Source: Komagataeibacter xylinus (lineage in GTDB: Bacteria > Pseudomonadota > Alphaproteobacteria > Acetobacterales > Acetobacteraceae). From it: DNA of 64,000 bases. The stretch covers positions 62,001-126,000 of the forward strand of contig NZ_QQBI01000003.1 in assembly GCF_004302915.1 (NCBI RefSeq). Reading direction: 5' to 3'. The notes beneath the pieces were generated by a model. The model saw only the letters and a program-made list of their open reading frames with translations, was not told where the DNA came from and did no database searches. A program made the translations under genes and the position numbers. Of this stretch, positions 3,278 to 56,172 are shown one piece after another (the stretch's first letter is position 1; every line of letters starts with the position of its first letter).

Positions 3278-3391
3278 TCCCCTCACACACGGGCAGCATG
3301 ATGCAAAGCCGGGCCTGCGGCCTGCAACCACAAAAGCGGTCGTACACGCAATGGTGCCTGCCCCGGGCAGCGACCGGGGCGGGCCTTACCC

Positions 3392-42060: not shown

Positions 42061-42852
42061 TTATTCTTGCCTGCCATCCGCCATCAGCACCTCGCCCGTC
42101 ACTACCTGCCGGGGGCCTGTGGGGGTGTCGAGCAGCAGGATTCCGTCATCCGCCAGCCCGGCAAACGTGCCGCTGAAGGCCCGGTTGCCCGCCACTACAC
42201 GCAGTTTCGTGCCCGGCGGGTGCGCACGCGCCAGCCACGCCGCGCGTATGGCGCCAAACCCCTGCGCCTCATGGCACGTCAGCCACGTATCGAGTGCCTG
42301 CAAAACGGCACGGGCCATGTCGGGCGGGGTGACCGTAACCCCGCATTCGGCCAGACAGGCCAGTTCGCGGCCTTCTATGCGCGGGGCGGCCCTGAGGTTG
42401 GCCCCCATGCCGATCACCTGCCACGGCCCTGCCTCATCCGCCCCGGTCTCGATCAGGATGCCCGCCATCTTGCGCCCGTGCAGCAGCAGGTCATTGGGCC
42501 ATTTGAGTTCCAGCGCGTCCGGTTCGGGCAGGAAACCCGCCACGGCCTCATGCAGCGCAAGACCCGCGATGAACGGCCATGCCCCCACCGGCACCACCGC
42601 CCCCTGCCCCACCAGCATGACCGACAGCGCCAGATTGCCCCCCGGATCACGCCATTCGCGCCCCCGGCTGCCGCGCCCCGCCGTCTGTTCAAGGGCCAGC
42701 ACCGCGAGCCCGTCCTGCCCGTGCCCTGCCGCCAGCATGTCCTTGCACAGGTTGGATGTGGAGCCCAGCCTGTCATGCACCTGCAATGGCCACGTGCGCC
42801 CCCCGCTGCGGGGAATGCTCATGGTGCGGAAGGCAGGAGGGCTATGGGTCAT
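42061..42852 (-). CDS. birA: Biotin--[acetyl-CoA-carboxylase] ligase, group I (no HTH)
   Basis: 263 residues. The biotinyl-AMP motif GRGSRGREW (GRGRxGRxW family), KWPNDLLLHGRKMAGILIET, GMGANLR and a C-terminal beta domain with FSGTFAGLADDGILLLDTPT are all present. There is no N-terminal winged helix, so it is a pure ligase without repressor function. It attaches biotin to the carboxylase carrier protein. The start is three bases after the nuoN stop, so it is co-transcribed with nuo, a standard alphaproteobacterial arrangement. Confidence 0.93.
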   Translation of the reverse strand: MTHSPPAFRTMSIPRSGGRTWPLQVHDRLGSTSNLCKDMLAAGHGQDGLAVLALEQTAGRGSRGREWRDPGGNLALSVMLVGQGAVVPVGAWPFIAGLALHEAVAGFLPEPDALELKWPNDLLLHGRKMAGILIETGADEAGPWQVIGMGANLRAAPRIEGRELACLAECGVTVTPPDMARAVLQALDTWLTCHEAQGFGAIRAAWLARAHPPGTKLRVVAGNRAFSGTFAGLADDGILLLDTPTGPRQVVTGEVLMADGRQE

Positions 42853-42855
42853 GGA

Positions 42856-44280
42856 CTACCTGAACAATGCAGCCGCCGCCGCCTGTGCCGCCGTGGCAAC
42901 CGGGCCGAGGGCTACGATGAAGAACACCGTGACCAGCCCCATGCCAGCGGAAACGAACGAGACCGAAACCGGCGCGCGATCAAGTGCGGGGGCAGCGGCA
43001 TCAAAAAACATGATCTTGACGATGCGTATATAATAATACGCCCCGATCACGCTACTGATGATACCGATTGCCGCCAGCCCGTAAAGCTGCGCGTTGATCG
43101 CGGCATAGAACACCATAAGCTTGCCAAAGAAGCCCGCCAGCGGCGGTGCGCCCGCCATGGAGAACATGAACACCGCCATGGCCAGCGCCATGCCCGGGTC
43201 GCTGCGGCCCAGCCCCGCAAGGTCGCTGATGCGGCTGACCGCGCGCCCCTTGCGCCGCATGGCCACGATGCCCGCGAACGCGCCCACGTTCATGAACAGA
43301 TAAGTCACCAGATAGACCAGCGTGCCGCGCGTGCCCTCCGTCGTGCCCGCAGCAAGGCCGATCATGGCGTAGCCCATATGCCCGATGGAGGAATACGCCA
43401 TGAGCCGCTTGATGTTGCCCTGCGGGATGGCGGCGAGTGCGCCAAACACCATCGACGCCGCCGAGACCACCTCGATCAGCAGCTGCCACTGGTGCGCCAT
43501 GGAGCCGAACGGCCCGGCCATGACCCGCAGCAGCACGGCGAATGCCGCGATCTTGGGCGCGCCCGCCATATAGGCGGTGACCGAGGTGGGGGCACCCTGG
43601 TACACATCGGGTGTCCACATATGGAACGGCACCATGGACAGCTTGAAGCACAGCCCCACCAGCACGAACACGATGCCCACCATAAGCCCCGCGGGCAGCA
43701 CGGCGCTGCCGCGCACGGCCTGCTGCAGCCCGGCATAATCCAGCGTGCCCGCAAAGCCATAGGCCAGCGAGATGCCATAAAGCAGGATGCCCGAGGCCAG
43801 CGAGCCGAGCACGAAGTATTTCAGCCCCGCCTCCGCCGCCGTAACCTGGTCGCGCGCAAACGCACACAGGATGTAGATGGACAGCGAGGAAAGCTCGAGC
43901 CCCACGAACAGCGTCATGAGGTTGCCCGATGAGGCCATGATCATGGCGCCAAGGGTCGAGAACAGCACCAGCACGGGGAACTCGAATTTGTCGATTTCCA
44001 TCTCGCGCGCATAGCCGATGCCCAGCACCAGCGAGAGCGCCGCCCCCGCCAGCGCCAGCACCTTCATGAAGCGCGCAAAGCCATCATTGATGAAAACATG
44101 GCTGTAACCCGTGCCATCGGGCGAGAGCACCACCAGCGCCGCCGTCACCACCAGGGCGAACAGCGTCATCATCGTGCATGAAAAGAAAGCCTGACCGCGC
44201 TTTTGCATCACCCCGGCCAGCAGGATGACCAGCCCGGACAGGGCCAGCACGATTTCGGGCAGAGCAAGTGTCCAGTTCAT
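42856..44280 (-). CDS. nuoN: NADH-quinone oxidoreductase subunit N
   Basis: 474 residues with fourteen predicted helices. The NuoN signature is clear: MNWTLALPEIVLALSGLVIL, SLSIYILCAFARDQVTAAEA, YFVLGSLASGILLYGISLAY and FKLSMVPFHMWTPDVYQGAP with TSVTAYMAGAPKIAAF. It is an antiporter-like proton-translocating subunit of the membrane arm. Normally nuoM precedes nuoN; here nuoL does, at a distance of 25 bases. The start codon overlaps the stop of a six-codon frame (ATGA). NuoN cannot be mistaken for NuoM: the C-terminal and N-terminal motifs are those of NuoN. Confidence 0.95.
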   Translation of the reverse strand: MNWTLALPEIVLALSGLVILLAGVMQKRGQAFFSCTMMTLFALVVTAALVVLSPDGTGYSHVFINDGFARFMKVLALAGAALSLVLGIGYAREMEIDKFEFPVLVLFSTLGAMIMASSGNLMTLFVGLELSSLSIYILCAFARDQVTAAEAGLKYFVLGSLASGILLYGISLAYGFAGTLDYAGLQQAVRGSAVLPAGLMVGIVFVLVGLCFKLSMVPFHMWTPDVYQGAPTSVTAYMAGAPKIAAFAVLLRVMAGPFGSMAHQWQLLIEVVSAASMVFGALAAIPQGNIKRLMAYSSIGHMGYAMIGLAAGTTEGTRGTLVYLVTYLFMNVGAFAGIVAMRRKGRAVSRISDLAGLGRSDPGMALAMAVFMFSMAGAPPLAGFFGKLMVFYAAINAQLYGLAAIGIISSVIGAYYYIRIVKIMFFDAAAPALDRAPVSVSFVSAGMGLVTVFFIVALGPVATAAQAAAAALFR

Positions 44281-44305
44281 TGGTTTGGCCCTGACATCCT
44301 TGGGG
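44281..44305 (-). other. nuoL-nuoN junction: nuoM missing
   Basis: Only 25 bases lie between the nuoL stop and the nuoN start. On the coding strand they contain CCAAGG followed by an ATG and the codons TCA GGG CCA AAC CAA, then TGA overlapping the nuoN ATG. The arrangement of ribosome site, start, and stop overlapping the next start is what would remain if the interior of nuoM were removed in frame. nuoM is normally about 1.5 kb here. Confidence 0.85.
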
Positions 44306-46243
44306 TTAGCTGGCGAACAGGATGGTGGTCAGCAGCACCACCAGCCCGATCAGCATGGAAAAGGCATAGACCGCCATCGACCCGGTCTGCACCCGCACGG
44401 CCTGGCCTGCAGTGCCTGCGGCAAGCCTGGCCAGCCCTTCGGGTATGCCTTCGACAATCCCTTCGTCAGCCCCCTTCCACAACAGCCGCGCCAGCGCGCG
44501 GTAGGGGCGCACGAACACGGCATCGTACACCTCGTCGAAATACCATTTGTTGAGCAGGAACAGGTAAAGCGGGCGCAGGCTGCGGGCGAGTGCTGCCGGA
44601 ATGCCGGGGCTTGCCATGTAGCACAGATAGGCCACCGCAATGCCCGCAACGCCAGCAAGGGTCGGCACCAGCGCAATCAGGCCCGGTGTCTGTTCAAGGC
44701 GCTCCATGATGTCATGCCCCGGCAGGCTGGCAATCGTCCCACCCCAGAACCCGGCCTGGTTGGCCCCCACATAGAACGGCGCCAGCACCACACCCGCCAG
44801 CACGGCCCCCACCGACAGGACAGCGAGAGGCACCATCATGGACGGCGGGCTTTCATGCGCGCCTTCGTGCAGGTGCGCATCACGCGGCTGGCCATGAAAC
44901 ACCAGGAAGATCAGCCGCCAGCTATACAGCGCGGTGAGGAACGCGGTGATGCAGCCCATGACCCAGCCATAATGGCCCATGGAGGAGCCTGACATCCACG
45001 CCGCCTCCAGAATGGCGTCCTTCGACCAGTAGCCCGCGAACGGGAAGATACCGGCAAGTGCAAGGCTGCCAATCCACATGGCGGCATAGGTATAGGGAAT
45101 TTTGCGCCACAGCCCGCCCATGCGGAACATGTCCTGCTCGTCATGCACGGCATGGATCACGCAGCCCGCCCCAAGGAACAGAAGCGCCTTGAAGAAGGCA
45201 TGCGTGGTGAGGTGGAACATCGACGCCTGATAGGCCCCCACGCCAACGGCCACGAACATGTAGCCCAGCTGCGAGCAGGTGGAATAGGCAATGGTGCGCT
45301 TGATGTCGGGCTGCACCAGCCCAACGGTTGCGGCAAAGAAGCTGGTGGTTCCACCAATGAGAATGATCAGGTCGCGCGTCACGGGTGCCAGTTCCACCAG
45401 CGGCGACATGCGCACCATCAGGAATACCCCCGCCGTGACCATGGTGGCCGCATGGATAAGGGCGGAAACCGGGGTTGGTCCCTCCATCGCATCAGGCAGC
45501 CAGGTGTGCAGGAACAGCTGCGCCGACTTGCCCATGGCGCCGATGAACAGCAGGGTGGCGATCACCTCCAGCAGCGGATGCGTGCCGAAAAGCTGGAACG
45601 TGTCATGCACGTGGTAGGGAATGGCGGCGAAGATCGCATCATACGACACGCTGCCCAGCCGGATGTAGATGAGCGAGATACCGACAAGGAAGAACAGGTC
45701 GGCAATGCGGTTGACCACGAACGCCTTGATGGCGGCAGCGCAGGCCGCAGGCCGGTCATACCAGTAGCCGATCAGCAGGTAGCTCGCGAGCCCCACCCCT
45801 TCCCAGCCGAAGAAGAGCTGGAGCAGGTTGTCGGACGTGACCAGCATGAGCATGGCGAAGGTGAACAGCGAGAGATAGGCGAAGAAGCGGTACACCGGCT
45901 GCGCCTCATGCGCCATGTAGCCCACGCTGTACACATGCACCAGCAGCGACACGGTGGTGACCATGGCCACCACGCTGACCGAGAGCATGTCCATGCGCAG
46001 CTGCCAGTCGGCCTCAAAGCCTGCTGCGTGGATCCAGTCGGCTACCGGCACAACAATCGGGTTCACGCCCCCCATCTCGAAGCCCAGCACACCAATGGCG
46101 GACAGCGCCGCGCACAGCATGAGGGCAATGGTGGTGAACCGCGCAGCACTGTCGCCCATCAGGCGGCCAAAGCCACCGGCGAGGAGAAACCCGATCAGGG
46201 GCGCGAAGACCGCGACTTCAAACAGGAAGGATGCCGCCTGCAT
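44306..46243 (-). CDS. nuoL: NADH-quinone oxidoreductase subunit L
   Basis: 645 residues, a normal NuoL. The key region FFGWEGVGLASYLLIGYWYD, GKSAQLFLHTWLPDAMEGPT, PVSALIHAATMVTAGVFLMV, YSTCSQLGYMFVAVGVGAYQ and HAFFKALLFLGAGCVIHAVH are diagnostic, including the conserved Lys and Glu used for proton transfer. The C-terminus includes the long lateral helix region and a final anchor helix (YAFSMLIGLVVLLTTILFAS). NuoL is the distal antiporter-like subunit of the membrane arm and normally contacts NuoM, which is absent here. It starts five bases after the nuoK stop. Confidence 0.96.
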   Translation of the reverse strand: MQAASFLFEVAVFAPLIGFLLAGGFGRLMGDSAARFTTIALMLCAALSAIGVLGFEMGGVNPIVVPVADWIHAAGFEADWQLRMDMLSVSVVAMVTTVSLLVHVYSVGYMAHEAQPVYRFFAYLSLFTFAMLMLVTSDNLLQLFFGWEGVGLASYLLIGYWYDRPAACAAAIKAFVVNRIADLFFLVGISLIYIRLGSVSYDAIFAAIPYHVHDTFQLFGTHPLLEVIATLLFIGAMGKSAQLFLHTWLPDAMEGPTPVSALIHAATMVTAGVFLMVRMSPLVELAPVTRDLIILIGGTTSFFAATVGLVQPDIKRTIAYSTCSQLGYMFVAVGVGAYQASMFHLTTHAFFKALLFLGAGCVIHAVHDEQDMFRMGGLWRKIPYTYAAMWIGSLALAGIFPFAGYWSKDAILEAAWMSGSSMGHYGWVMGCITAFLTALYSWRLIFLVFHGQPRDAHLHEGAHESPPSMMVPLAVLSVGAVLAGVVLAPFYVGANQAGFWGGTIASLPGHDIMERLEQTPGLIALVPTLAGVAGIAVAYLCYMASPGIPAALARSLRPLYLFLLNKWYFDEVYDAVFVRPYRALARLLWKGADEGIVEGIPEGLARLAAGTAGQAVRVQTGSMAVYAFSMLIGLVVLLTTILFAS

Positions 46244-46248
46244 GTCCC

Positions 46249-46572
46249 TTACCCCTTCATCATCGTGATATCGTCGACTTCAATCGAGCCGCGATTACGG
46301 AAATACACCGTGACAATGGCCAGCCCGATGGCGGATTCCGCCGCCGCGATGGTCAACACGAACAGGGTCATCACCTGCCCCGACAGGTCGCCGGTCGCAG
46401 CCGAGAACGCCACGAAATTGATATTGGCCGAAAGCAGGATCAGCTCGATCGACATCAGGATGATGATGACGTTCTTGCGGTTGAGAAAAATGCCGAACAC
46501 GCCCAGCACCAGCAGGATCGCGCCAATGCTCAGGTAGGGTGTCAGGCCGATGGCCTCAATCGGGCTATTCAT
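46249..46572 (-). CDS. nuoK: NADH-quinone oxidoreductase subunit K
   Basis: 107 residues with three membrane helices: [40 protein letters not shown] (conserved Glu) and [20 protein letters not shown] (second Glu). Both membrane carboxylates important for proton transfer are present. ATG 46572 is used because MARKER-like upstream codons are not in homologues; it overlaps the end of nuoJ by eight bases. Confidence 0.95.
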
Positions 46573-47338
46573 CGCCCTCTCCTTTCGTGCCATTTGCGGG
46601 CGTCTTGATCACCAGCGCGGTGCCGTCAGCGTCACGTGCTTCCGCCTCGCTCCAGGCCGCGGTACCATAGGTGCCGGGCACGGCGGCGATGTCATAGCTC
46701 TCACGCGGGCGCAGGAAGCCGCCCTGCGCATCAACGCCCGCGCCAAGCGGCACCTGCAGCATTTCAAGTGAGTCCGCCACCATGCGGTCGTGCTGGCGGT
46801 CGATGTTCTGCCGCCGTCCTGTGGGCCGCTCGCGCAGGGTGAGCACGATGGCCCCGATCATGGCCACGAGCAGCACCAGCGCGCAGGCCTGGAACAGGAA
46901 GATGTAGTGGGTGTAGATCACATCCCCCAGCGCCGCCGTGTTGGTGCGCGTGGGCGACGAGGGCACGAGATGCGCGATCTGCCCGATATTGGTCGCCGCG
47001 CGCCAGTGCATGAACGCCATGAGCAGTTCAATAAACAAAACCCCGCCCACAACCCCGCCAATGGGCGCATAACGCTGCACGCCTTCGCGCATCTGCGTGA
47101 AGTTGACATCCAGCATCATCACCACGAACAGGAACAGGACTGCTACCGCGCCCACATAGACAATGACCAGCGTCATCGCCAGGAACTCCGCACCCGCGAT
47201 CAGGAACAGGCCGGCTGCGTTGAAGAACGCAAGGATCAGGAACAGCACCGAATGCACGGGGTTGCGCGCGCTCACCACCATGGTGGCGGACAGGACCAGA
47301 ACCGCAGCAAAAACGTAAAAGACAATCTGGGTCATCAT
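46565..47338 (-). CDS. nuoJ: NADH-quinone oxidoreductase subunit J, with long C-terminal tail
   Basis: 257 residues from ATG 47338. Five helices, including [20 protein letters not shown] (the YVGA Tyr segment) and [20 protein letters not shown]. The usual subunit is about 190-200 residues; here a hydrophilic tail of roughly 75 residues follows ([20 protein letters not shown] and beyond). Acetic acid bacteria and relatives may share this tail; I cannot test it. AGGAAA precedes the start at suitable distance. Confidence 0.93.
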
Positions 47339-47416
47339 GGGTAGGTTTCCTGCCGCATGGATGTTTCCTCCTGCTGGCTCTGCCACTCCGGCACGCGCCG
47401 GGGCGGCCGGGCGCGC

Positions 47417-47905
47417 TCAGCGGTACGGGGCATCAAGCTCGAGCCTGCGGGCCAGCACGCTTTCCCAGCGGTCGCCATTGGCCAGCAGCTTGTCCTTGTC
47501 GTACATCAGTTCTTCGCGGGTTTCAGTCGCGAACTCATAATTCGGCCCTTCGACAATCGCATCCACCGGGCAGGCTTCCTCGCACAGGCCGCAATAGATG
47601 CATTTGGTCATGTCGATGTCGTAGCGCGTGGTGCGGCGCGAGCCGTCATCACGCGGTTCGGCCTCGATGGTGATCGCCTCGGCAGGGCACGTTGCCTCGC
47701 ACAGCTTGCACGCAATGCAGCGTTCTTCGCCATTGGGGTAGCGGCGCAGCGCATGCTCGCCGCGAAAGCGCGGCGAAAGCACGCCTTTCTCATAGGGGTA
47801 GTTGATCGTGGCCTTGGGCTTGAAAAATGCCTTCAACGTTGCCCCCATGCCTGCCGCAAGCTCGGCCAGCAGCATGGAGCGGGCGGCTTTGGTTAACGCA
47901 TTCAT
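47417..47905 (-). CDS. nuoI: NADH-quinone oxidoreductase subunit I (2 x [4Fe-4S])
   Basis: 162 residues. Two ferredoxin motifs, [12 protein letters not shown] and [12 protein letters not shown], bind clusters N6a and N6b on the route to quinone. The amphipathic N-terminus ([20 protein letters not shown]) lies on the membrane arm. It starts on the base where the nuoH stop ends, a one-base overlap. There is a 78-base gap to nuoJ, larger than elsewhere in the operon. Confidence 0.97.
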
Positions 47906-48927
47906 CAGCCAGCTCCTCCGGGCAGAAGGCCCGTTACCATCAGGAACCCCGCAGTCAGCACCATCCACGCCAGCGAGAACGGCAGGAACACCTTCCAGCC
48001 CAGCCGCATCAACTGGTCGTAGCGGTAGCGGGGAAATGTCGCGCGCACCCAGATGAACACGAACAGGCAGAACAGGATCTTGGCGATCAGCCACAGAGGC
48101 CCCGGTATCCATGTAAAGGGTGCAATGGCCAGCGGCGGCAGCCAGCCACCCAGGAACAGGATGCTGACCATGCCGGACATGAGGAACATGTTCGCGTATT
48201 CACCCAGGAAGAACAGGCCGAAGGCGAGCGCCGAATATTCCACGAAAAAGCCTGCCACCAGTTCGCTCTCGCCCTCGGGCAGGTCGAACGGCGCGCGGTT
48301 GGTCTCGGCCAGGGCCGAGATGAAGAACACGATGAACATCGGAAACATGGGCAGGCAGAACCACACATGGCGCTGCGCCAGCACGATGTCATTGAGGTTG
48401 AGGCTGCCCACCGCCAGCAGCACCGACACGATCACCAGCCCGATGGACACCTCATACGACACCATCTGCGCCGCCGACCGCAGCCCGCCGAGAAAGGCGT
48501 ATTTGGAGTTCGACGCCCAGCCCGCAATCAGCATGCCGTAAACACCGAGCGAGGAGATGGCCAGCAGGTAGAGGATGCCCACGTTGATGTTGGCGATGGC
48601 CAGCCCGTTGCCGGTGGGAATGACCGCCCACGCAATCATCGCCAGCGAGAAGGTGAGGAAGGGCGCAAACAGGAACAGCATCCGGTTCGCGCCTGACGGG
48701 ATGACCGTCTCCTTGGTCAGCATCTTGATGGCATCGGCAAAGGCCTGCAGCACGCCGAACGGACCGTTCACGTTCGGCCCCTTGCGCAACTGCATCGCGG
48801 CCATCACCTTGCGCTCGGCCAGCGTAAGGTAGGCCACGCCCAACAGCAGCGGCACGAGCACCGCAAGGGATTCCAGCACGATCAGCAGAAGCTGGCCAAG
48901 CGTGGTGTGAAAGAAGAAATCCGCCAT
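47905..48927 (-). CDS. nuoH: NADH-quinone oxidoreductase subunit H
   Basis: 340 residues with eight helices. [40 protein letters not shown] and [20 protein letters not shown] are the conserved quinone-site loops (Glu-rich) joining the two arms. ATG 48927 is used because residues upstream to 49011 lie within nuoG in another frame. Four bases separate it from the nuoG stop. Confidence 0.97.
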
Positions 48928-48931
48928 GTCC

Positions 48932-50998
48932 CTACTCCGCCGCCTCGGTTGCGGGGCGCACGTAAATCCCCGAACAGGTTTCCATGGTCGGGCTTGCGCG
49001 GCACACGGCATGGGTCAGGTAATAATCGGCAATGACCGGATGAAAGGGCGTTGCCGCGACTGCCACGCTGCCCGGCTGCGGGGCGGTCGTGTCCGCCGCG
49101 CCAAGGCGGGCATGTTCCGCCTGCCCATAGGCCGGGTGCGCCTGCGCCATCCGCGCGCGCAGGGCCTCGATCGTGTCATAGGGCAGCTTGCGGCCCGCCA
49201 CCTCCGAGAAGGCACGCAGGATGCGCCAGTCCTCGCGCGCATCCCCCGGCGGCATGACCGCGCGGAAGGCGCGTTGCACGCGGCCTTCGGTATTGGTGTA
49301 GGTGCCCGGTTTTTCGGCATAGAGCGCGCCCGGCAGGATCACATCCGCCCGCGCGGCCCCCGCATCACCATGATGGCCCTGATAGATGACGAAGGTGTCC
49401 GGCCCGATGTCATGCACCGCGAACTCATCGGCGTCCATCAGCCACAGCACGTCCACCCCGCCGCCCAGCATGCCCGCCACATCACGCCCCTGCGGGCCGG
49501 GCACGAGGCCAAGGTCAAGGGCCGCCATGCGGCTCGCCGCCGTGTGCAGCACGTTGAAGCCATGCCAGTCGGGGCGGATGGCATCCATCTGCACCGCCAG
49601 ATCCCAGCAGGCCTTTGCAATGGCCTGGCCGTCGGGGCGGGTCAGCGCGCCATGGCCCACGATGATCATGGGGTTCTTCGCGTTGGCCAGCACCTCGGCA
49701 AAAGGCAGTTCGCCTGCCGCAAGTTTGGCCAGCGTGTCCGGCCCCTCGCCCAGCACGGTGGCGGTATAGGTCGGGTCGGCATTGGGCGCGCCGATCATGG
49801 CGATGGGGAATTTGCCCCGTCCCGCATCGACAAACCGCCTGCGGATGCGGGCATTGAGCACCGGGGCTTCCTGCCGGGGGATGGAGCCCACGATCAGCAG
49901 CGCATCCGCCTCGTCAATGCCTGCGATACCGGTATTGAAGGTGTAGAAGTCACGGCGGGATGTATCGTAACGCGCGCCATCCTGACGGCAGTCGATATTG
50001 GGCGAGCCGAGCATGCCCATCAGGTCTTTCAGCGCCATCAGGCTCTCGGCGTCGCACATGTCGCCTGCGATTGCGCCGATGCGGGCACCCGGCACGCCTT
50101 TGAGGCGCGTTGCGATGAGCGAGAACGCATCCGCCCAGCCTGCGGGCTGGAGTTTGCCGTCCACCCGCACCCAGGGCCGGTCAAGGCGGCGACGGCGGAA
50201 GCCATCGACCACGAAGCGCCCCTTGTCGGCCAGCCATTCCTCGTTCACTTCATCATTGATGCGCGGCACGATGCGCAGCACCGATGCCCCGCGGGCCTGC
50301 ATGACGATGTTGGTGCCCACCGCGTCGCATACATCAATCGAGTCCGTGCGCTTGAGCTCCCACGGGCGGGCGCTGAAGGCGTAGGGTTGTGAGGTCAGCG
50401 CGCCCACGGGGCAGATATCGATCAGGTTGCCTGACAGTTCGGATGTCAGCGCCTTCTCGACATAATTGGTGATCTCAAGGTTCTCGCCGCGTGACACGCC
50501 GCCGAGTTCCGGCACGCCCGCCACCTCGGTGGAAAAGCGGATGCAGCGCGTGCACTGGATGCAGCGCGTCATCACCGTCTTGACCAGCGGGCCGAGATAC
50601 TTGTCGGTCACCGCGCGCTTGTTCTCGCGGTAGCGCGAATGATCCGCCCCGTAGCCGAAGGCCTGGTCCTGCAGGTCGCACTCGCCACCCTGGTCGCAGA
50701 TGGGGCAGTCAAGCGGGTGGTTGATGAGCAGGAACTCCATCACCGCCCGGCGGGCACGGCGCACCACCTCGGTGTCGGTAAAGATCTGCATGCCATTGCT
50801 GATGGGAAAGCCGCATGAAGCCACCGGCTTGCGCCCGCCTGATACTTCAACAAGGCACATGCGGCAGTTGCCCGCGACCGACAGCCGCTCATGGTAGCAA
50901 AAGCGCGGTATTTCCTTGCCAGCTGCCTCACACGCCTGCAACGCGGAAGAACCGGGCGCGACATCGACCACAATACCGTCAACGGTTACTTTGACCAC
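48932..50998 (-). CDS. nuoG: NADH-quinone oxidoreductase subunit G
   Basis: 688 residues, the alphaproteobacterial/mitochondrial length. N-terminal [2Fe-2S] ligands ([20 protein letters not shown]), the His-containing C/H cluster region ([20 protein letters not shown]), and the [10 protein letters not shown] and [10 protein letters not shown] 4Fe-4S motifs are intact. The C-terminal molybdopterin-like domain is present but without cofactor residues, as usual. It receives electrons from NuoF and passes them along the cluster chain. Starts five bases after the nuoF stop. Confidence 0.97.
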
Positions 50999-51003
50999 TG
51001 TTC

Positions 51004-52329
51004 CTACTCCGCCGCTTCAACAAGGCCGGTGGGCACCTGCACCGGTCGGCCGCCGCCATGCGCCGCCTTGTAGGCGTGGATGCGTTCCTCCATGACCGGA
51101 CGGAACCGGCGGATCAGCCCCTGTATGGGCCACGCCGCCGCATCGCCAAGCGCGCAGATGGTGTGGCCCTCGACCTGGCGGGTGACCTGCTCGAGCATGT
51201 CGATTTCCTCGATCTCGGCGCGGCCTTCCACCATGCGTTCCATGATGCGCATCATCCAGCCCGTGCCCTCGCGGCACGGCGTGCACTGGCCACAGCTCTC
51301 ATGCTTGAAGAATTTCGAGAACCGGGCGATGGCCGCGATGATGTCGGTGGACTTGTCCATCACGATCATGCAGCCGGTGCCAAGGCCGGAGCCTTCGGCG
51401 CGCAGGCTGTCGTAATCCATCAGCACGCTCTCGCACACATCACGCGGCAGCATGGGCACCGAGCAGCCACCGGGGATGACGGCCAGCAGGTTGTCCCACC
51501 CGCCGCGCACGCCGCCGCCATGCTTTTCAATGATCTCGCGCATCGGCACGCCAAGCTCTTCTTCAAACACGCAGGGCGTGTTGACGTGGCCCGATATGGC
51601 CATGAGCTTGCTGCCCGCGTTATTGGGCCGCCCCAGCCCCGCAAACCAGGCTCCCCCGCGCCGCAGGATGGTGGCGGAAACCGCAATGCTCTCCACGTTG
51701 TTGACCGTGGTGGGGCAGCCATACAGGCCCATGGCGGCGGGGAAAGGCGGCTTCATGCGCGGCTGGCCCTTCTTGCCCTCAAGGCTTTCGAGCAGGGCCG
51801 TTTCCTCGCCGCATATGTAAGCGCCCGCGCCACGGTGGATGTAGAAGTCGAAATCCCAGCCCGAGCCGCAGGCGTTCGGGCCGATCAGGCCCGCCTCATA
51901 CGCCTCGTCAATGGCGTGCTGGAGGTGCATGGCCTCGTTGTAGAACTCGCCGCGAATGTAGATGTAGGCCGCATGCGCCCCCATGGCGAAAGAGGCGATC
52001 AGCGCGCTTTCCACCAGCTTGTGCGGGTCGTGGCGCAGGATCTCGCGGTCCTTGCAGGTACCGGGTTCGGACTCATCGCCGTTGATGACAAGGTAATGCG
52101 GCCGCCCGTCATTCTTGCGCGGCATGAACGACCACTTGACCCCGGTGGGAAAGCCCGCGCCGCCGCGCCCGCGCAGGCCGGATGCCTTCATCTCGCCAAT
52201 GATGGCATCGCGCCCGCGCGCCAGGATTTCCGCCGTGCCATCCCAGTCGCCCCGGGCGCGGGCCCCGGCCAGCGTCCAGTCACCCTGGCCATACAGGTTG
52301 GTGAAGATGCGGTCCTTGTCTTGCAACAT
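51004..52329 (-). CDS. nuoF: NADH-quinone oxidoreductase subunit F (NADH/FMN site)
   Basis: 441 residues. The FMN/NADH segment [40 protein letters not shown], and the 4Fe-4S ligands in [14 protein letters not shown] with a fourth Cys near the C-terminus ([16 protein letters not shown]) are present. It oxidises NADH and feeds electrons into the cluster chain. The start follows the nuoE stop by five bases. Confidence 0.97.
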
Positions 52330-52334
52330 GCGCC

Positions 52335-52985
52335 TTACCCCTGTCCCTGCGGCTTGGCCGCCGTCTCATCCACCAGCACCCTGCGCCCGCCTGCCGGGGC
52401 TGAATTGAGGCGGTCGATGGTGGGGCCGGGCGTGGGGCGCTCGCCGCGCTTCAGCGCCTCGATCAGCTCAAGCGTGCGCGGACCATCGAGATCCTCGTAG
52501 TAATCATCATCAACCTGCAAAATCGGCGCATTGGCGCAGGCGCCGAGGCATTCCACCTCCGTCAGGGTGAACAGCCCGTCCGTGCTGGTCTCGCCAAACG
52601 CCCTGATGCCGGTGGCCTTCTTGCACGCCGCCGTCACATCATCCGACCCGCGCAGCCAGCATGATGTGGTGGTGCAGACCTGCAGGTGATAGCGGCCGAT
52701 CGGCTTCGTGTTGAACATGAGGTAGAAGGTTGCGACCTCGTACACCCGGATCGGCGCCATCTCGAGGCGCTCGGCCACCACATCCATGGCAATGCGCGGT
52801 ATCCACGCGCTGCCGGTCTGGCGGCCCATCTGCTTCTGCACCACGTAAAGCAGCGGCAGCACGCCGCTTGCCTTGCGCTCGGGCGGGTATTTGGCAAGGA
52901 TCACCGCGATCTGCTGCTCACTCTCGGCATCAAATGCGAAATGGGTCGGTTCCGCGCCCGTGGGCGCAGTGGGCTGGGTGGACAT
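52335..52985 (-). CDS. nuoE: NADH-quinone oxidoreductase subunit E ([2Fe-2S])
   Basis: 216 residues. A helical N-terminal domain ([20 protein letters not shown]) precedes a thioredoxin-like [2Fe-2S] domain with the ligands Cys-x4-Cys (CTTTSC) and Cys-x3-Cys (CLGAC). An extra 40-residue tail follows. ATG 52985, with AGGTG seven bases upstream, is preferred over a GTG at 52994 that overlaps the nuoD stop. It works with NuoF in the NADH module. Confidence 0.95.
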
Positions 52986-52990
52986 GTCGG

Positions 52991-54247
52991 TCACCTGTCA
53001 ATCTCGCCAAACACCAGGTCGAGCGACCCGATGATGGCTACGGCATCCGCCAGCATGTGCCGGCGCGACATCTCGTCGATTGCCTGGAGATGGGAAAAAC
53101 CCGTGGGCCGGATCTTGCAGCGATACGGCCGGTTGCTACCATCGGCCACCAGATACACGCCAAACTCGCCCTTGGGCGTTTCGGTCACCGTGTAGGTGGC
53201 GCCCGGAGGCACGTGATAGCCTTCGGTAAACAGCTTGAAATGATGGATCAGCGCCTCCATCGAGCGCTTCATCTCGCGCCGTGGCGGGGGCGTGATCTTG
53301 TGGTCGAGCACCTTGACCGGGCCGGGGCGGATCTGCTCGAGGCACTGGTTGATGATCTTCACGCTCTCGCGCATCTCAGCTACGCGCACGAGGTAGCGGT
53401 CATAGCAGTCGCCCTGGCGGCCTACGGGCACGTTGAACTGCACCTTGTCGTAATTATCATAGGGCTGGCTGCGGCGCAGGTCCCATGGCACGCCGGAGGC
53501 CCGCAGGCACGGCCCGCTGAAGCCCCAGGCCAGCGCCTGCTCGGTGGTGAACACGCCAATGCCCACCGTGCGCTGCTTCCAGATGCGGTTGCTGGTCAGC
53601 AGGCTTTCAAGGTCATCAATCCATTGCGGGAAGGTGCGCGCCCAGTTGGCGATGCGTTCCTCCAGCCCGGCGGGCAGGTCCTGCGCCACGCCGCCGGGGC
53701 GGACGTAATTGGCATGGAAGCGCGCGCCGGATGCGGCCTCATAGAACTCGATGAGCTTCTCGCGTTCCTCATATCCCCACAGCGCGGGCGTCAACGCGCC
53801 ACAATCCAGCCCGAAGGAGGTCAGGTTAAGGATATGGTTGAGGATACGCGTGATCTCGGCAAACATCACCCGAATCCACTTCGCACGGTCCGGGGCCTCG
53901 ATGTCGAGCAGCTTTTCCACCGCCAGCGCGAAGGCCTGCTCCTCGCACATGGGCGAGACGTAATCGAGCCGGTCGAAATACGGCAGCGCCTTGGGGTAGG
54001 TCTTGTATTCGATCAGCTTTTCCGTGCCGCGATGCAAAAGCCCCACATGCGGGATGGCGCGGGCCACGACCTCGCCCTCCATCTCCAGCACCAGCCGCAG
54101 CACGCCGTGGGCGGAGGGGTGCTGGGGGCCGAAGTTCAGCGCGTGGGAGTCGATCTCCACCACATGGCGCTTCACCTCGCCATCGGGTTCTTCTGGCAGC
54201 AGGCTGTCGGGAATGTCCGTATCGCTACGCAGGGTGACATCGCTCAT
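52991..54247 (-). CDS. nuoD: NADH-quinone oxidoreductase subunit D
   Basis: 418 residues. [20 protein letters not shown] carries the quinone-site His; [39 protein letters not shown] and [20 protein letters not shown] are family landmarks, and the last residues [12 protein letters not shown] complete the [NiFe]-hydrogenase-like fold. It forms the quinone cavity with NuoB and NuoH. ATG 54247 is used; upstream codons overlap nuoC. Confidence 0.97.
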
Positions 54248-54251
54248 CGGC

Positions 54252-54917
54252 TCAGCCCTTTCGCTTGATGTCGTGGCGGTCGGCATGCGCCTTTTCATCG
54301 CCCGGCAGGGTCAGGATGCCTTCCCATGGCGATTCAAATTCGAAATTGCGGAAGTCCTGCACCAGATCGACCGGCTCATAGACCACCTGCCGCCGTTCCT
54401 CGTCGTACCGCATCTCGACATAGCCGGTCAGCGGGAAGTCCTTGCGCAGCGGATGCCCCTCGAAGCCGTAATCGGTCAGGATGCGGCGCAGGTCCGGCTG
54501 GTCGGTGAACAGGATGCCGAACAGGTCATACGCCTCGCGCTCCCACCATGTGGCGGCGGGCCAGAGCTGGTGCACCGACGGCACGGGATGGGTCTCGTCC
54601 GTGGTCACGATCACGCGGATGCGGTGGTTATGGGTAACCGAGAGCAGGTTGTAGACCACCTCGAACCGCTCGGCCCGGTCGGGAAAATCCACGCCACATA
54701 TGTCCATCACCTGCTGGCAGGCATAAAGCGGGTCATCGCGCAGCATGGTCATGAGCGAAAGCAGGCGGTCACGCGTGGTGCGCACCACCAGCTCGCCTTT
54801 TTCGATGCCGGCGGACATGATGCCCGGCACGGTGGTGGAAAGCCGGAAGCTGATGGCCCCCAGGCTGCCCGTGACCCCACGTGGCTGGCCTGCGGGAAGG
54901 TTCTGTGCCTCAGCCAC
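54252..54917 (-). CDS. nuoC: NADH-quinone oxidoreductase subunit C
   Basis: 221 residues; separate from NuoD, as in most alphaproteobacteria (fused in E. coli). [40 protein letters not shown] and [20 protein letters not shown] are the conserved 30-kDa-subunit segments. It is a peripheral-arm structural subunit. Its start overlaps nuoB by eight bases, its end precedes nuoD by four. Confidence 0.97.
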
Positions 54918-55512
54918 GGCGGATTGTCCCTGTCCTGCGGATCTTCTTCTGCAGTTGCAGGATGCCGTAGATCAGCGCCTCCGCCGTGGGCGGGCAGCCG
55001 GGCACGTACACATCCACCGGCACGATCCGGTCACACCCGCGCACGACGGAGTAGGAATAATGGTAATACCCGCCCCCATTGGCGCATGACCCCATCGAGA
55101 TGACCCAGCGTGGCTCGGCCATCTGGTCGTACACGCGGCGCAGGGCCGGGGCCATCTTGTTGGTCAGCGTGCCCGCCACGATCATCACATCGGACTGGCG
55201 TGGCGAGCCACGCGGAATGATGCCCATGCGGTCGAGGTCATAGCGCGGCATGTAGGCGTGGATCATCTCCACCGCGCAGCAGGCCAGCCCGAACGACATG
55301 GGCCACAGGCTGCCCGTGCGCCCCCAGTTGACCAGCTTGTCGAGACTGGCGACGACAAAGCCCTTTTCCGTCATCTCGCCAGTGATGCCCTTTATCACCG
55401 CATCCTGCTCCGGCCCCGGGGGCAGCATCTCGCGGTTCCAGGCAATGCTGTCAGCGGGCCGGCCTGGCCCTGATGTATCGTCGTTGCCCATTGGGGCGCC
55501 TCCCCTTGTCAT
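54910..55512 (-). CDS. nuoB: NADH-quinone oxidoreductase subunit B (cluster N2)
   Basis: About 200 residues. The N2 cluster ligands are in [13 protein letters not shown] (tandem Cys), [20 protein letters not shown] and [39 protein letters not shown] precedes them. It gives electrons to quinone. The ATG at 55512 follows the nuoA stop after two bases; ATG 55491, with GGAGG seven bases before it, may be the true start. Confidence 0.96.
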
Positions 55513-55514
55513 GC

Positions 55515-55880
55515 TCAATCCCAGTCCAGCGCGCCCTTGCTCCATTCGTAAATGAAGCCGACCACCAGAACGCCGAGGAAACCCATCATGGAAGCAAAGC
55601 CGAACCAGCCGATGCGCGACAGGCTGAGCGCCCAGGGAAAGAGGAAAGCGACCTCAAGGTCGAAAATGATGAACAGGATCGCCACCAGATAGAACCGCAC
55701 GTCAAAACGGCGGCGGGCATTGTCAAATGCCTCGAAACCACATTCATAGGCCGACGTTTTCTCGGCATAGGGTTTCTGGTGGCCAAAAAGCAGCGAACTG
55801 CCCAGCATGGCCCCCGCGATCACCACAGCAATGCACCCGAATATCAGTACGGGTAAATAATCAGCGATAACGGAATGCAT
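55515..55880 (-). CDS. nuoA: NADH-quinone oxidoreductase subunit A
   Basis: 121 residues with three helices. [20 protein letters not shown] (loop with the conserved ECG and D residues) and [20 protein letters not shown] are the standard NuoA landmarks. First gene of the operon; translation from ATG 55880 ([15 protein letters not shown]). The promoter should lie within the 290 bases up to the tRNA genes. Confidence 0.97.
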
Positions 55881-56172
55881 CTTCCGTGTTCCCAACCTGT
55901 TAATACGCCGCCCGGTGTCTTTATCGACTTATGTGTGGCTGAAGGGATGCTAGACCCAACACCGTGGGGGGAACAGTTACTTAACCGTGTGCAGTCATGA
56001 ACATTACCGTGAAGATGAATACAGTAACGCTTCCGTCAACACTATTCCGTCATGACCATAATAGCACGATTTATTGTTCTCATTTTTCCGTGTGGAAAAA
56101 CGGGCATAAAAAAACGCCAGTGCAATGGCATCTGGCGTGGTGCAGAACATGATGATGGGCTGTGCGCCATAA
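55881..56172. promoter_or_regulatory. Upstream region of the complex I operon
   Basis: About 290 bases without a gene between nuoA and tRNA-Asp. AT-rich around 56030-56110. It should hold the nuo promoter and possibly the end of the tRNA transcript. No operator identified. Confidence 0.4.

Follow-up and report, generated by a model that had tools for sequence, protein, structure and literature searches.

Complex I of the 14-subunit bacterial type usually, though not obligatorily, has nuoM between nuoL and nuoN in a single operon. In the stretch of Komagataeibacter xylinus DNA analyzed here (the window, 64,000 nucleotides within contig C35), the order on the minus strand is nuoA-B-C-D-E-F-G-H-I-J-K-L, 25 bases, nuoN and then birA, and no nuoM open reading frame is present between nuoL and nuoN. 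This locus raises the question of whether the organism builds a complex I without NuoM or draws the subunit from another place. A first-pass annotation of the window had offered three accounts of the gap, namely that the assembly had dropped about 1.5 kb, that the strain carries a deletion or that nuoM lies elsewhere, and had added that a working enzyme without NuoM would be a novelty for proton stoichiometry. The third account stands and the first two fall. Very probably the organism has an ordinary 14-subunit proton-pumping complex I, whose nuoM lies in trans beside mutL and descends from an old duplicate that displaced the operon copy.

The operon and the separate nuoM

NCBIfam and Pfam matches identify NuoA to NuoL and NuoN (Table 1), NuoI by its 4Fe-4S domains and position only, and bear out the order first described, in which nuoN follows nuoA-L without nuoM. 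The birA gene adjoins nuoN in many relatives too, whether nuoM is in place or displaced (tblastn).

Table 1. Complex I genes of the window, their flanking gene and the nuoM of the same genome. Positions are those of the window unless a contig is given.
Feature	Position	Strand	Basis and remarks
nuoA	55515..55895	-	PF00507, 132 bits
nuoB	54910..55545	-	PF01058, 95 bits
nuoC	54252..54917	-	PF00329, 152 bits
nuoD	52991..54298	-	PF00346, 404 bits; ORF limits, real start may be further in
nuoE	52335..52994	-	PF01257, 174 bits
nuoF	51004..52329	-	PF01512, PF10589, PF22461
nuoG	48932..50998	-	TIGR01973, 706 bits
nuoH	47905..49011	-	NF004745, 513 bits; ORF limits, start likely internal
nuoI	47417..48112	-	PF00037, PF12838 (4Fe-4S); ORF limits, tested part from 47920
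nuoJ	46565..47386	-	NF005164, 266 bits; PF00499
nuoK	46249..46593	-	NF004323, 155 bits; PF00420
nuoL	44306..46243	-	TIGR01974, 782 bits; ends with TAA at 44306
nuoL-nuoN gap, 25 bases	44281..44305	-	contains TCAGGG, read as nuoN ribosome-binding site
nuoN	42856..44280	-	NF004440, 593 bits; TIGR01770, 467 bits
birA (biotin-protein ligase), directly 3' of nuoN	42061..42852	-	PF03099; tblastn
nuoM	C46:31533-32972	-	NF004499, 592 bits (cut-off 585); TIGR01972, 555 bits (cut-off 263.8)

The genome of the strain comprises 3.63 Mb in 101 contigs. A genome-wide search with PF00361 returns four places: besides NuoL and NuoN in the window, contig C46 encodes a full-length NuoM and contig C24 a weak HyfB-like protein. 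The C46 protein is intact, is the sole NuoM found in this genome and reaches only 134 bits with the NuoN profile, NuoM being its best profile. The account that placed nuoM elsewhere is thus the right one. As we read the sequences, mutL lies upstream of the gene on the same strand, and its other neighbor, on the opposite strand, encodes the B subunit of a type II topoisomerase. The mutL stop lies 134 bases from the nuoM ATG, and the 501-base mutL-nuoM region has no match to a sigma-70-like or terminator-like pattern, a result that says little.

The same genome holds a second complex-I-like gene cluster (C24:107-6251, minus strand, L298). It comprises genes for a NuoB-like protein over the Pfam cut-off (PF01058, 71 bits) and a HyfB-like protein of 577 aa, and an 876-aa reading frame that is NuoD-like at 558-768. 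All of these proteins fall far under the NCBIfam cut-offs, and the cluster resembles an Ehr or hydrogenase-4-related complex.

Throughout the genus, nuoM lies apart from the native nuoL-nuoN pair (19/19 Komagataeibacter genomes, the strain's own included), each NuoM scoring over the profile cut-off. The gene and the pair share one chromosome-sized contig in five genomes, about 435-720 kb apart, and are on different contigs in 14. A second nuo set, with nuoL, nuoM and nuoN together, occurs in 12 of the 19 (G001, G002, G003, G005, G008, G010, G011, G012, G013, G015, G017, G018). Because this set has a different NuoL/NuoM type and was not found in the genome of the window, it is not the source of the NuoM there.

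At the level of the family, the NuoM profile finds a match at E 1e-20 in 148 of 160 genomes drawn; the remaining 12 have none. NuoL was sought in 47 family genomes (5 Komagataeibacter and 42 chosen mainly by NuoM scores) and is present in 45. By our reading of the coordinates, 35 of these have native-type NuoL, and in this group nuoM is displaced in 20 genomes and lies in the operon in 15; in the remaining 10, the only NuoL is of the second type. Scanning named genomes yielded 112 relatives, and the best 80 of the 112 were kept. In none of these 80 do the fetched flanks of the displaced nuoM (up to 8 kb, with less than 1 kb on one side in L097, L098, L100, L106 and L140) contain NuoL, N, H, G, I or J. 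Among the same best 80 of 112, a MutL match upstream of nuoM ends within 500 bases in 60 and farther away in 6, and is absent from the fetched DNA in 14. The genera with a displaced nuoM include Komagataeibacter, Novacetimonas, Gluconacetobacter, Acetobacter, Ameyamaea, Commensalibacter, Endobacter and Lichenicoccus, among others.

Two controls have NuoL and/or NuoN beside NuoM. The first covers 30/30 loci of the class that belong to other families (30 of 37 matches listed, the remaining 7 being without a locus and including the displaced G000 and G058). The second covers 30/30 top-scoring loci of the family (L015-L044), which are operon types by score and so validate the test without indicating the frequency of the split.

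In several Acetobacter species (L095, L096, L115, L117, L120, L122, L136, L141, L142), no MutL match is present by the displaced nuoM in flanks of 8 kb. In some members of this genus, nuoM thus appears to have changed its place once more.

Origin of the displaced gene

The genomes with a displaced nuoM form one clade in two trees: 15 of 26 rows in the NuoL+NuoN tree (support 100/100) and 14 of 27 rows in the rpoB tree (100/99), which was built from 30 genomes, two of them without an rpoB match, with the partial row G068 left out. One ancestral change therefore suffices. The NuoM trees were made on chosen subsets of rows (80; 52; 36 and 33), all leaving out second-type NuoMs and the rows of the fast genus g30. 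In three such trees, the displaced NuoMs join a stand-alone NuoM of another genus, g100, in a single clade (100/100), and this support stays at 100/100 after the fast operon groups are removed (36- and 33-row trees). As a group on their own, the displaced NuoMs have lower support, of 83/78 (80 rows) and 96/85 (52 rows). Genus g30 (L046 = G047, L049 = G133) has small genomes and an in-operon NuoM with 35% identity to that of the window's genome.

Genus g100 has both a stand-alone nuoM and an ordinary nuoM next to NuoL in the operon (3/3 genomes: G117, G173, G394). Since the displaced NuoM groups with the stand-alone protein of g100 and not with operon NuoMs, the operon nuoM probably gave way to a diverged duplicate before the acetic acid bacteria radiated, as far as sequence comparison can tell. 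In the simplest course of events, an ancestor within the Acetobacteraceae would have duplicated its nuoM, and the stand-alone copy would have diverged. The operon nuoM would then have been lost cleanly in the ancestor of the acetic acid bacteria, while genus g100 would still hold both copies.

Seven positions carry a displaced-specific residue, defined as one found in at least 95% of displaced rows and at most 5% of operon rows. The stand-alone NuoM of g100 has four of the seven (Y150, T153, S256 and F316), two of which, Y150 and T153, lie next to E151. The operon NuoM of g100 has none, and of the five operon NuoMs nearest to the displaced ones, the four that were counted have none either. Among the matches listed, the next best matches of the g100 stand-alone protein are displaced NuoMs at 53-61%, compared with 50-53% for presumed operon NuoMs; in two of the latter rows (G097 and G098, 53%), NuoL-like and NuoN-like matches adjoin NuoM.

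With the stand-alone protein of g100 as query against 397 genomes of the family, at most three candidates being scored per genome, at least five genomes among the matches listed have two matches at E 1e-150: the three of g100, G081 and G362. Both copies are in operons in G081 and seem to be so in the fragmented genome G362. With at most three candidates per genome and part of the matches listed, weaker second copies could be missed, as with G029, G119 and G175. These three genomes have an independent stand-alone NuoM duplicate (L173, L174, L175) besides the operon nuoM, and the TM8 lysine (position 261) is an asparagine in all three duplicates.

An unlikely alternative with some points in its favor is simple relocation, in which the ancestor of the acetic acid bacteria transferred its operon nuoM to the mutL locus and the gene then evolved fast, the g100 copy being an unrelated duplicate joined to it by long-branch attraction. 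A single displaced clade in the NuoL+NuoN and rpoB trees fits one such event, and both NuoM lineages have long branches: the stem of the clade uniting displaced and g100 proteins measures 0.57-0.97 changes per column, and a further long branch, of 0.8, leads to the stand-alone NuoM of g100. Long-branch attraction is thus possible, and the duplicate origin falls short of proof. The gene neighborhoods differ as well, as the stand-alone nuoM of g100 is not beside mutL and no neighborhood common to it and the mutL-linked nuoM was found (seven genes, 85 displaced loci). However, the clade of displaced and g100 proteins keeps its full support without the fast operon groups, and the four displaced-specific residues are shared with the stand-alone copy of g100 and not with its operon copy or the four nearest operon NuoMs counted. 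Furthermore, an AU test on the 52-row tree, with groups named only after the tree was seen, rejects a clade in which the displaced NuoM and its nearest operon group stand together and the g100 copy is left out (p 1e-71). It also rejects a duplication confined to g100 (p 5e-5).

A more doubtful extension of the duplicate origin gives the stand-alone NuoM a role of its own. It would be a functionally distinct isoform that first worked alongside the operon copy, so that two interchangeable forms of complex I existed, as g100 may still have. In the acetic acid bacteria it would then have replaced that copy outright, because changed TM5 surroundings (Y150 and T153 by E151) or separate regulation suited cells that live at low pH and whose quinone pool is fed by periplasmic oxidation.

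Transfer of the stand-alone NuoM from outside the family, displacing the native gene, is highly improbable. The identity to the native operon NuoMs of the family that were read is a modest 48-56% (35% for genus g30), as such a transfer could leave it. However, the best-scoring genomes from outside the family among 150 sampled genomes of the phylum belong to the same class, at 50-51%, and the displaced NuoM nests inside the Acetobacteraceae in outgroup-rooted trees. Its nearest PDB relative by sequence is that of Paracoccus (434 bits, vs. 284 bits for Escherichia coli), the PDB chains being the only sample of other phyla. The duplicate origin within the family accordingly remains the preferred reading.

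The nuoL-nuoN junction

The gap reads as first described, with an AAGG, an ATG and six codons whose TGA overlaps the nuoN ATG. The gap measures 24-26 bases in 19/19 Komagataeibacter genomes (own included), and its small reading frame varies. Six codons and a stop over the nuoN ATG are present in 10 of the 19 junctions, that of the window among them; in 7 the frame runs into nuoN without a stop, and in 2 the ATG is missing. The AAGG is not found in all 19 either. The constant element is TCAGGG (19/19), which ends 8-9 bases upstream of the nuoN start and is read as part of a putative ribosome-binding site of nuoN. In 15 displaced genomes of other genera, the junction ranges from a short overlap to a gap of about 60-70 bases, and no sequence is common to these gaps. 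Neither remnants of the nuoM ends (none seen at the 19 Komagataeibacter and 15 other junctions) nor room for nuoM (0/34 displaced-lineage junctions) are present. The six codons had been likened to the two ends of nuoM after an in-frame loss. As they are kept in only 10 of 19 junctions, the small frame is not conserved and gives no evidence for an in-frame excision; it is probably just the nuoN leader.

Although the window comes from a 101-contig draft, an assembly artefact or a strain-specific deletion between nuoL and nuoN is refuted, because the short junction without nuoM recurs across the genus, no displaced-lineage junction has room for the gene and loss of the operon copy is common to the sampled acetic acid bacterial lineage. 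A split common to all 19 genomes implies neither an assembly fault nor a strain-level event.

NuoM as a subunit of complex I

E151, K230, K261 and E403 are kept in 111/111 displaced rows, some genes having been fetched twice. We take these to be the proton-path residues of TM5 (Glu), TM7 (Lys), TM8 (Lys) and TM12 (Glu). Comparison of the nuoM of the window's genome with five congeners yields dN/dS values of 0.045-0.099, which at the sequence level indicate that the gene is under purifying selection. The AlphaFold model of a Komagataeibacter NuoM (L073, 98% identical) has a mean pLDDT of 73, residues 391-453, including E403, being below 50. Its best Foldseek match is the Paracoccus NuoM (8qby_M, TM 0.78), and the top 24 matches are NuoM/ND4/NdhD chains by their labels and lengths (TM (query) 0.68-0.78), so that the displaced protein is predicted to have the NuoM fold. 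Of five NuoMs of the displaced or stand-alone kind that were scanned, three score below the strict NF004499 cut-off of 585 (G103 577, G031 535, g100 515).

Proteomic data for Acetobacter pasteurianus, as far as the available part of the report goes, list the operon proteins under ids 3342-3354 (PMC10742644). With NuoI at 3350 and NuoN at 3354, there is room for J, K and L only in between, and NuoM is detected under a separate id, 1610. Its ratios (0.62, 0.33, 2.16, 1.78) follow those of NuoN (0.93, 0.31, 2.22, 2.12) and of a second NuoB entry (0.51, 0.34, 2.37, 1.77), which argues that the remote nuoM is expressed in this species and varies with the complex (PMC10742644).

We infer that the remote NuoM is built into complex I. 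Thirteen genes of the enzyme would come from the window operon and the antiporter-like NuoM would be supplied in trans, taking its usual place between NuoN and NuoL; with this placement, the proton stoichiometry would be normal. A complex I without NuoM and with a shortened membrane arm, for which only the operon without nuoM speaks, is refuted at the gene level by the full-length nuoM under purifying selection on C46, and detection of the separately numbered A. pasteurianus protein (PMC10742644) also stands against it; the suggested novelty in proton stoichiometry goes with it.

A separate nuoM is already known for A. pasteurianus. In strain SKU1108, nuoM (APT_00690) lies apart from the nuo operon (APT_01737-APT_01725), and the gene inventory that lists it gives it as conserved in strains SKU1108, 386B and NBRC 3283 (PMC5158111). 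The layout is the same as here, a 13-locus operon plus a separate nuoM. The available part of that inventory deals with neither evolution nor function, and relative to it the lineage-wide extent, the mutL linkage and the paralogue origin are new; the history of the gene is a modest addition, and at the enzyme level the case is ordinary. Within the open-licence literature searched, no paper was found on a lineage-wide nuoM split or a duplicate origin. A published nuo tree was built from nuoHIJKLN, leaving nuoM out (PMC4596401), and the 13 coding sequences, counted by number, of Gluconacetobacter diazotrophicus GDI2459-GDI2471 are called a complete nuoA-nuoN (PMC2765452).

A second nuo set is known in acetic acid bacteria (PMC4596401), and a plasmid-borne Nuo is described for Komagataeibacter saccharivorans (PMC12361115). 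We infer from the accessible parts of these reports that they concern the second set of the 12 Komagataeibacter genomes, which is of another NuoL/NuoM type than the window operon's.

The complex I of Paracoccus denitrificans (PDB 8qby) has the same subunits and provides the best match in both sequence and fold for the displaced NuoM. Unlike the canonical 14-gene alphaproteobacterial complex I, that of the window's genome has its nuoM off the operon and in a diverged clade. A false claim of a NuoM-less complex I is removed, and annotation of acetic acid bacteria from the operon only would miscall their complex I as incomplete. The lineage is a natural example in which a diverged paralogue, expressed from its own locus, has probably taken over from a core antiporter subunit of complex I, and g100 holds both copies; in such a system, subunit exchange and the balance between operon and trans expression are open to testing.

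Two further genomes have irregular nuo genes. In G105 (L181), the matches to NuoI, NuoL, NuoM and NuoN are each in two pieces in the operon, probably through frameshifts in the draft sequence. In G211, which also has an intact NuoM, the NuoM match at C34:15264-16664 contains three TGA codons in frame and may be a pseudogene or reflect another code.
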